DNA of 36,122 nt from Candidatus Staskawiczbacteria bacterium RIFOXYC1_FULL_38_18. GTDB lineage: Bacteria > Patescibacteriota > Minisyncoccia > Minisyncoccales > Staskawiczbacteraceae. The notes beneath the pieces are model-generated. The model saw nothing but the letters and a program-made list of their open reading frames with translations, had not been told where the DNA came from and did not search any database. Both the position numbers and the translations under genes were made by a program. The stretch lies in NCBI GenBank assembly GCA_001822095.1, contig MHPP01000014.1:75654-111775 (forward strand). Direction: 5' to 3'. Below are positions 12,911-14,749 of this stretch, piece by piece. Positions within the stretch are counted from its first letter, which is position 1. Each line of letters starts with the position of its first letter.

Positions 12911-13663
12911 TTATTCTATCATAACCCATCGCCATTTTCCATATTGGTCTTTGTTAAATTCCCAGCTTTTATATTTATATTTTTTAAGCAATCTTTCTAT
13001 TTTATCTTTCTGCTCGGGGCTGAACTCCATGAAAATTTTTCCTTGCCCGTCCGAAGCCTTAGCGAAGGAGGGCGCGTCCTTCAAAAATTTATTTATATAA
13101 AAAAGTCCGTCTTTTCCGCCAAATAACGCTTTTTTAGGCTCGAACTTTAAAACCGACTTTTGAATTCGATTCAGTAAAATCGCCCTGAGTCGCTCCGAAA
13201 GGTTTTTCCTGTAATCTGGAATATACGGCGGGTTGGCAAAAATATAGTCGTATTTACTTTTTATGTTTGAAAACACGTCTGACTTTATTACTCGATGTCC
13301 AACCATGCGGTTTTCAATATCGGCAAAATCAACTTCTGAATTTTTTATGTTCTTCAAAACTGCCAAACCAATGCACCCTGAACCAGAAAACATATCCAAA
13401 ATCCGCAGATTTTGTCCTGAGCTTGTCGAAGGATAAAACTTGTTAATTTCTTTTATTACCTGTCCCACCCAAAATTCTGTTTCCGGCCTGGGAATTAACG
13501 GTTTTTTTGACAAATCTATTTTACAGCCCAAAAAATCGGTAAATCCAATTACATAATCCAGCGGCTCCCCCTTTTCGAGCCGCTTAATATCTTTTTTAAA
13601 ATTTATATTCGGCTTATTTAAATATTTTTCTTTCAACAGCCAGTTAATTTCTTTTTTAAGCAT
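12911..13663 (-). CDS. prmC: peptide chain release factor N5-glutamine methyltransferase
   Basis: A 250-residue PrmC/HemK homologue that would methylate the GGQ glutamine of release factors. LIPRPETE (57-63), the SAM loop ILDMFSGSGCIG (88-99) and the active-site NPPY (144-147) are present. The N-terminal domain is short, and the segment between the SAM loop and NPPY is about 18 residues shorter than in E. coli PrmC, apparently missing most of the DiSxxAlxxAxxN helix. Two repeat-derived inserts are present, PSTSSGQ at 78-84 and PSFAKASDGQG near residue 200. Start is an ATG without SD. Followed 10 nt downstream by the nuclease gene. Confidence 0.9.
   Translation of the reverse strand: MLKKEINWLLKEKYLNKPNINFKKDIKRLEKGEPLDYVIGFTDFLGCKIDLSKKPLIPRPETEFWVGQVIKEINKFYPSTSSGQNLRILDMFSGSGCIGLAVLKNIKNSEVDFADIENRMVGHRVIKSDVFSNIKSKYDYIFANPPYIPDYRKNLSERLRAILLNRIQKSVLKFEPKKALFGGKDGLFYINKFLKDAPSFAKASDGQGKIFMEFSPEQKDKIERLLKKYKYKSWEFNKDQYGKWRWVMIE
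13044..13071 (-). repeat. related repeat encoding PSFAKASDGQ (in prmC)
   Basis: Coding-strand CCTCCTTCGCTAAGGCTTCG then GACGGGCA; encodes PSFAKASDGQ. A longer relative of the PSTxSGQ element with the same CCTTCG...GGGCA ends. Confidence 0.65.
13413..13433 (-). repeat. PSTxSGQ repeat copy 3 (in prmC)
   Basis: Coding-strand TCCTTCGACAAGCTCAGGAC then A; encodes PSTSSGQ just before the SAM-binding beta strand. Confidence 0.85.
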
Positions 13664-13700
13664 TACTTATTATTATCTTAAAATTTATTAAAAAGCAAAA

Positions 13701-13724
13701 AAAAGACCCAAATCTGTTTGGGCC
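13701..13724 (-). terminator. intrinsic terminator of the OMPDC-like gene
   Basis: On the minus strand GGCCCAAA-CAGA-TTTGGGTC (one G-U pair) is followed by a long T-rich run. It starts 6 nt after the stop codon. Confidence 0.9.
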
Positions 13725-13730
13725 TGCAAA

Positions 13731-14621
13731 CTAGGCAATGCGACTAGCCTGCATTTTGCGACTGCTTAAAATGGCTGTGTTGATTTTCTGCGCGACAGCC
13801 TTGGCAGCCGTAAAGCAATTTGTTCCCTGCGATGCGTAAAGCACGGTGCGGGAGGTCACAACGGAAAACCCCATACCCCGATCATCTTGGCCGTTTGCCA
13901 CCGATTCCTTCACTGTTTCCTCAATGCGGGCCGGTCCATTGGAGCTTATTCCATAAATGAAAAACGGAGTTACCCTTGGTCGATTACATTGTGTTATCAC
14001 ATTCCTGATTTCCTTTAACTCATGAGAGTGTTTGGCGCCAATTGCAAGGGCGCAGTTATGGTTTTCATCCCAGTATTGCGACGCCCGCCAGGCCACGCGC
14101 CGATAAAGAGGCATCAACGGATCACTGTCGTCCTTAATTATGGCGTCCTGAAACTCGCTGGCTTCCGGGTCTGTTGTGCGGCAGTTTACAATGACTCCCT
14201 TCTCCTGCTGTTCAAGAACCGGGAGAAAGGCAAACCTTCCGTGATAAGCGCAAACCGTTATGGCATCCGCACCCATTTCCCCAAACCACAGCTTACCCGC
14301 CCGCTCCACCGTGTGCTTGGCTCCGGCCTCATTGATGTCGGCTATTACAGGCACCAGGGGCGCGACTTCGTGAATGTGCCTTATGAGATCCTTTGCCACA
14401 TTCAACGAATTAGAGCCATACACTGGGTAGAGAAATGCAGGATCAATTTGGTAGCAACAAATCGTTTCTCCAGTTACAGCGATTATACCATCCAAAAAAG
14501 TTAGCGCATCGCCGCAACCCTTTGGCATTCTATCCGGTCTTGGGTTTAAGCTCACGGTTAGAAACTTTCCACGGGCCCACTGGTCATTCAGCATGTGCAT
14601 AAAATGACGTTTCTCGCTCAT
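13731..14621 (-). CDS. OMP-decarboxylase-like protein, predicted pseudoenzyme
   Basis: A 296-residue protein with the layout of type 2 orotidine-5'-phosphate decarboxylase. VSLNPRPD stands for the GLDP strand, CCYQIDPAFLYPVYG for cayKPnxAFyealG, VIADINEAGAKHTVERAG for the DxKxxDIxxT strand, and VVTSRTVLYAS for the C-terminal VGRxI phosphate site. Key residues differ: GLDP Asp is Asn26, the first catalytic Lys is Gln58, and the second Lys and Asp of DxKxxD are Asn97 and Gly100; only Asp95 and the phosphate-site Arg remain. Decarboxylation is therefore unlikely. ATG start with GGAGG seven bases upstream. GC-richer codons than neighbours, with own promoter and terminator. No other pyr gene in view. 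Confidence 0.75.
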   Translation of the reverse strand: MSEKRHFMHMLNDQWARGKFLTVSLNPRPDRMPKGCGDALTFLDGIIAVTGETICCYQIDPAFLYPVYGSNSLNVAKDLIRHIHEVAPLVPVIADINEAGAKHTVERAGKLWFGEMGADAITVCAYHGRFAFLPVLEQQEKGVIVNCRTTDPEASEFQDAIIKDDSDPLMPLYRRVAWRASQYWDENHNCALAIGAKHSHELKEIRNVITQCNRPRVTPFFIYGISSNGPARIEETVKESVANGQDDRGMGFSVVTSRTVLYASQGTNCFTAAKAVAQKINTAILSSRKMQASRIA

Positions 14622-14681
14622 CTTCCAGCCTCCTTTGCGTCTGCTTGTTGATAAATTGGAAACGTACGGACATTTTTTCTA

Positions 14682-14709
14682 ATTCTACTCTTGTCAAAAA
14701 CCTTGTCAA
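14682..14709 (-). promoter_or_regulatory. sigma-70 promoter for the OMPDC-like gene
   Basis: On the minus strand TTGACA (14704-14709), 16 bp, TAGAAT (14682-14687). Both boxes are strong; the SD and ATG follow about 50 nt downstream. Confidence 0.75.
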
Positions 14710-14721
14710 TGGCGTGGCAAC

Positions 14722-14743
14722 AAAAAACCGCGATTAGCGGTTT
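14722..14743 (-). terminator. intrinsic terminator of rplU
   Basis: Minus strand AAACCGC-TAATC-GCGGTTT followed by TTTG; 7 bp stem, starts a few bases after the rplU stop. It separates rplU from the OMPDC-like unit, whose promoter starts directly beyond it. Confidence 0.88.
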
Positions 14744-14749
14744 CCAAAT

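Follow-up and report, generated by a model that had tools for sequence, protein, structure and literature searches.

A probable pseudoenzyme related to type 2 OMP decarboxylase in the rplU-prmC slot of a Candidatus Staskawiczbacteria genome

The window analysed here is a stretch of 36,122 nucleotides from contig MHPP01000014.1 of Candidatus Staskawiczbacteria bacterium RIFOXYC1_FULL_38_18. On its minus strand, a coding sequence with an ATG start (13731..14621) encodes a protein of 296 aa, hereafter P0001, which was assigned by family profiles, active-site columns and a fold model as PyrF-like (type 2 OMP decarboxylase, OMPDC) with replaced catalytic residues. Pfam and locus comparison place the gene between rplU (ribosomal L21; 14750..15055, minus strand) as the upstream border and a gene for a prmC-like methyltransferase (12911..13663, minus strand) as the downstream border of what we refer to as the rplU-prmC slot. 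The preliminary description of this DNA had credited the gene with its own promoter, Shine-Dalgarno sequence and terminator, and all three were found on the same strand: a promoter of the form TTGACA-16-TAGAAT (11/12; 14682..14709), identified by scan and by conservation in relatives, the Shine-Dalgarno sequence AGGAGG 7 nt before the ATG (14629..14634), read from the sequence, and, by scan, a terminator-like hairpin with a trailing T run (13704..13725). While the promoter and hairpin scans each gave counts near the shuffled mean, the slot promoter is independently supported because it is conserved in relatives. The GC content of the gene (51%) exceeds that of most neighbours (35-42%) and is close to that of the canonical PyrF gene of the same genome (54%), which fits a lateral origin. 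Elsewhere in the window, a 310-aa open reading frame on the plus strand (1362-2294) has a GC content of 53% compared to 40% for the window and no Pfam or NCBIfam match, and may be a recent insert.

Judged by sequence and model together, P0001 is related to type 2 OMPDC (PyrF) along its whole length and has a (beta/alpha)8 barrel, in agreement with the fold assigned to it in the preliminary description. The NCBIfam profile TIGR02127 (pyrF_sub2) matched residues 7-271 with an E-value of 1.1e-26, although the score of 93.6 bits lies below the equivalog cut-off of 110.6 bits, and the Pfam profile PF00215 matched with an E-value of 8.7e-4 (19.7 bits, under its 27-bit cut-off). A sequence search of the PDB yielded the OMPDCs 4mjz and 3qw3 (E ~1e-11). 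An AlphaFold2 model, computed with 68 homologues from the fetched loci as alignment, reached a pLDDT of 94.4 and a pTM of 0.92, and all Foldseek matches listed for it in the PDB are OMPDCs, the best being 3qw3 from Leishmania (E 1.4e-18, TM 0.76/0.89). Since the alignment consisted mostly of canonical PyrF relatives, and single-sequence prediction was uninformative (pLDDT 34), the model indicates compatibility with the fold and is not independent proof of it; the homology to OMPDC is carried by the sequence matches. With type 2 PyrF (TIGR02127; PDB 3qw3, 4mjz, 3r89), P0001 shares the barrel fold, a full-length sequence relationship, Asp95, the phosphate-site Arg258 and the motifs CRT...EFQD and W.xN.NC.L..G. 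It differs from this family in the absence of both active-site lysines and two of the three aspartates, in changes of the ligand-site Ile, Ser, Pro and Gln, and in its score below the equivalog cut-off.

These replacements, which the preliminary description had read from the single sequence, are real. The motif table and column comparison place Asn26 at the Asp of the GLD motif (codon 14544..14546), Gln58 at the Lys of YKPN (14448..14450) and the sequence DINEAG at the position of DxKxxD (codons 95-100, 14322..14339), where Asp95 is kept and the Lys and last Asp are replaced by Asn97 and Gly100; the phosphate-site Arg258 (13848..13850) is retained (all minus strand). P0001 thus reads N26, Q58, D95, N97 and G100 at columns which, among 66 canonical homologues of the phylum, are conserved as D (100%), K (100%), D (100%), K (100%) and D (98%). 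Further changes affect the pocket: A101 stands for the Ile beside the last Asp, T150 for Ser and Y223 for Pro, S226 is also altered, and N228 stands for Gln, while T104, G224 and R258 are kept. A profile built from the homologues aligns to OMPDC structures across the DxKxxD region, and we take the active-site and pocket columns to correspond to D20, K42, D70, K72, D75, I76, S127, P180, Q185 and R203 of the Methanothermobacter thermautotrophicus enzyme. The columns of T150, Y223 and N228 are those of base or phosphate contacts in established OMPDC structures, with the Ser contacting the pyrimidine. Among the Ser/Pro/Gln/Arg set of phosphate and base contacts expected of a functioning OMPDC, only R258 is kept, and the GLD Asp, the YKPN Lys and an intact DxKxxD are missing; P0001 is therefore, as far as its residues tell, a member of the OMPDC family by descent that lacks the features of a functioning OMPDC. 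Continued binding of a phosphorylated ribonucleotide is less well supported than the preliminary description held, because N228, Y223 and T150 replace contact residues and little more than Arg258 and Gly224 is left of the phosphate site.

In established OMPDC enzymology, both lysines and the two aspartates that P0001 has lost are needed for decarboxylation. It is therefore very improbable that P0001 is a divergent OMP decarboxylase kept active by other residues: it retains the fold and Asp95/Arg258, but both Lys and two mechanistic Asp, conserved at 98-100% in the family, are gone. Moreover, a canonical copy is present in the genome, which comprises 687 kb at 95% completeness; the preliminary description had raised the question of such a copy, and a PyrF with all motifs is encoded at C1:29894-30763 and has a PyrE-like gene as its neighbour, so that OMPDC activity need not come from P0001. 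PyrB and PyrD gave no profile match in this genome, while the control profiles matched in all 14 reference genomes.

The presence of a canonical copy would also suit slow decay, in which selection on a redundant PyrF copy has relaxed but no stop or frameshift has yet arisen. The branch of P0001 is long (2-4 substitutions per site in the trees), and at the 78 columns conserved at >=85% in the 66 canonical homologues, P0001 keeps only 41 residues, compared to a minimum of 55 and a median of 75 among the canonical proteins. However, its losses take in nearly all active-site columns, while structural residues are preferentially kept, including D119, T122, G128, E156, Q158, W184, N189 and G195, and the promoter, Shine-Dalgarno sequence and terminator are intact. 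Furthermore, in comparison with canonical relatives (~63-69% protein difference), the fraction of differing sites is 0.34-0.41 at second and 0.65-0.72 at third codon positions, corresponding to a third/second-position divergence ratio of 1.6-2.1, and the reading frame contains no stop. Neutral simulations, in which three canonical genes were evolved to 63% protein difference, gave mean ratios of 0.96-1.02 with a maximum of 1.35, and a mean of 7-9 stops with a minimum of 1 in 600 runs. This is a rough null, without indels and with all change placed on one branch, but the gap to P0001 is wide. As no close orthologue of P0001 turned up in the genomes scanned, its constraint was inferred via these canonical relatives, and part of the measured divergence lies on their branches; with this qualification, the codon positions indicate that the gene is protein-constrained for most of its divergence. 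The view of the preliminary description that the gene is maintained rather than decayed is thereby upheld, and slow decay appears improbable. Catalytic loss and continued protein selection, the two marks of a pseudoenzyme, thus occur together in P0001, the latter as seen in the comparison with canonical relatives and not in population data.

Searches for homologues covered one collection of named genomes as well as the order (247 genomes), the class (384) and the phylum (380). Among the ~85 distinct PyrF homologues read, only three are devoid of the catalytic lysines: P0001, a protein of the congener G010 and a protein of a genome of the same class, G306. No close orthologue of P0001 was found in 84,980 species genomes (with P0001 alone as query) or in the named-genome collection, and no homologue was found in viral contigs; two unannotated faecal contigs among phage records showed ~24% identity. 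The degenerate protein of G010 (L038:5216-6085, contig JAPLZD010000050.1, Ca. Staskawiczbacteria) resembles P0001 in its slot directly upstream of prmC, its promoter, its loss of catalytic residues (K to L, D to N, K to S) and the presence of a canonical PyrF on another contig of its genome. In contrast to P0001, to which it is only ~30% identical, it has other residues at the dead positions (D26/L58/N95/S97/D100 in P0001 numbering), retains the GLD Asp, the last Asp/Ile and the phosphate-site Gln, and scores above the TIGR02127 cut-off, so that automatic annotation would name it PyrF. The degenerate protein of G306 (L064:1468-2337; D26/E58/D95/G97/A100) lacks, as P0001 does, the Lys and the last Asp and keeps the CRTS...EFQD and NKNC.L..G motifs, but it belongs to another family and gene context and has also lost the phosphate site; no canonical type 2 PyrF was found in the G306 genome. 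A clade of the three degenerate proteins (support 92/92) is not claimed, since long branches meet there and no degenerate protein is firmly placed in trees from which the other two are left out, and at ~30% identity the grouping of P0001 with the G010 protein is not firm either. Separately, the second PyrF copy of genome G037 (L016; G037:C7:15407-16072) reads DAKRAEV, with Glu replacing the last Asp of DxKxxD.

This comparison bears on whether the barrel has acquired a different reaction, again with a phosphorylated substrate, for instance via D95, E98, H103 or D151. Relatives with the OMPDC fold do catalyse other reactions, as in hexulose-phosphate synthase and keto-gulonate-phosphate decarboxylase, and P0001 keeps D95 and R258, many of its pocket residues are now polar (N26, Q58, D60, N97, E98, D151, E153, N228), and Glu98 is common to P0001 and the G010 protein. 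However, Pfam and NCBIfam profiles of these two and other OMPDC-fold families gave no match to P0001, whose motif DINEAG is not of the DxKxxD type. Moreover, Gln58, Asn97 and Gly100, whose conservation the preliminary description had left to be checked, are not conserved, as the sole positional counterpart, the G010 protein, has Leu, Ser and Asp there. As the three degenerate PyrFs differ at the dead positions, no new catalytic set is visible, which favours a pseudoenzyme over a new enzyme, and we consider the latter unlikely, while acknowledging that the long branch of P0001 leaves room for relaxed selection or a new function.

The neighbourhood of PD-DExK nuclease, prmC, rplU and rmuC is shared with G010, and the slot itself (window 13664-14749; loci L069, L080, L082, L094, L146, L078 and others) is variable, with pyrB in many genomes and degenerate pyrF in two. 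In the congeners G001, G003, G004, G005 and G011 as well as in several other genomes of the family, it holds pyrB (aspartate carbamoyltransferase), recognised by its STRTR, HPTQ and HPLPR motifs. The P0001 promoter and the bases after it (TAGAAAAAATGT) closely match the pyrB promoter found at this slot in congeners, and the sequence GTAGAATTAGAAAAAATGT, together with its TTGACA, precedes P0001, the G010 protein and the pyrB genes in almost unchanged form. With at most 1 mismatch, this pattern occurs 8 times over 36 genomes of the family, 7 of the 8 at the rplU-prmC slot. The coding sequence behind one conserved promoter has thus been exchanged, yielding pyrB in some genomes and degenerate pyrF in two; branching in the prmC and PyrF trees is too weak to tell one exchange (G000, the genome of P0001, and G010) from two.

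Several further observations concern the slot region and pyrF genes in general. Other inserts in the region include a 436-aa open reading frame in L070; visual inspection also suggests a purC-like gene on the downstream side of prmC in L075, and guaA/purH-like genes nearby in G010. Within the genus, the five congeners with pyrB in the slot lack a type 2 PyrF match, and the genomes with type 2 PyrF (G000, G002, G006, G007, G008, G010) have no pyrB there; these are draft genomes, and the pattern is a lead only. Canonical pyrF and its leader are nearly the same across classes in L003 (G037), L108 (G915, another class), L045 and L031, the leader in most of them comprising a hairpin AAGC(C/T)CGATTGTCGGGCTT followed by ATCGTACATTCCCAAC, which suggests that canonical pyrF moved recently between classes together with its leader. 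A general leader element for all pyrF genes was poorly supported beyond such close copies (13/81 vs 3 in the control region).

The pseudoenzyme reading includes a narrower variant, in which P0001 joins the cell's canonical PyrF as a subunit and tunes its activity. In the OMPDC dimer, each site takes an Asp and the Ile from the neighbouring subunit; P0001 lacks both (G100, A101), so that one site of a mixed dimer would be impaired. Both genomes of the genus that carry a degenerate copy (G000 and G010) also encode a canonical type 2 PyrF, but the canonical PyrFs of these two fall into different clades of the tree and the degenerate copy of G306 has no such partner, which together makes a fixed partnership unlikely. 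A precedent exists in another enzyme, the dead AdoMetDC paralogue of trypanosomes termed prozyme, whose pairing with the live enzyme is established (PMC6221367). The likeness is one of working principle only, a dead paralogue being kept beside a live enzyme; the proteins are unrelated, and the pairing established for prozyme is hypothetical for P0001. We regard such pairing as rather unlikely, and assign it a minor share of the probability of the pseudoenzyme reading.

Taken together, we favour the interpretation that P0001 is a catalytically dead paralogue, a pseudoenzyme, of type 2 OMPDC, with a probability of roughly 0.6. It would derive from a canonical patescibacterial PyrF, and its gene now occupies the rplU-prmC slot, where it follows the promoter driving pyrB in congeners. 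The barrel would have been kept while most of the Asp/Lys/Asp/Lys decarboxylation network was lost, and with it P0001 should be unable to decarboxylate OMP. The protein may serve in pyrimidine metabolism as a non-catalytic binder, most likely of a phosphorylated ligand or of a partner protein. A broader scenario, which we put forward tentatively and consider doubtful as a whole, is that this genus has put a non-catalytic PyrF to use in regulating or sensing pyrimidine supply, as a regulator or as a ligand sensor under the pyrB promoter of its congeners, and that dead PyrFs arose repeatedly among the Patescibacteria.

Few enzymes have been studied as thoroughly as OMP decarboxylase, and the open-access literature searched, a limited library, yielded nothing relevant on a natural dead OMPDC paralogue, an OMPDC pseudoenzyme or pyrF of the CPR. 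In a genome of 0.69 Mb, in which spare genes are rare, a retained dead PyrF would be a test case for the origin and role of pseudoenzymes. Furthermore, since automatic annotation based on the TIGR02127 cut-off would call at least one such protein PyrF, pathway reconstructions in Patescibacteria should check active-site residues.
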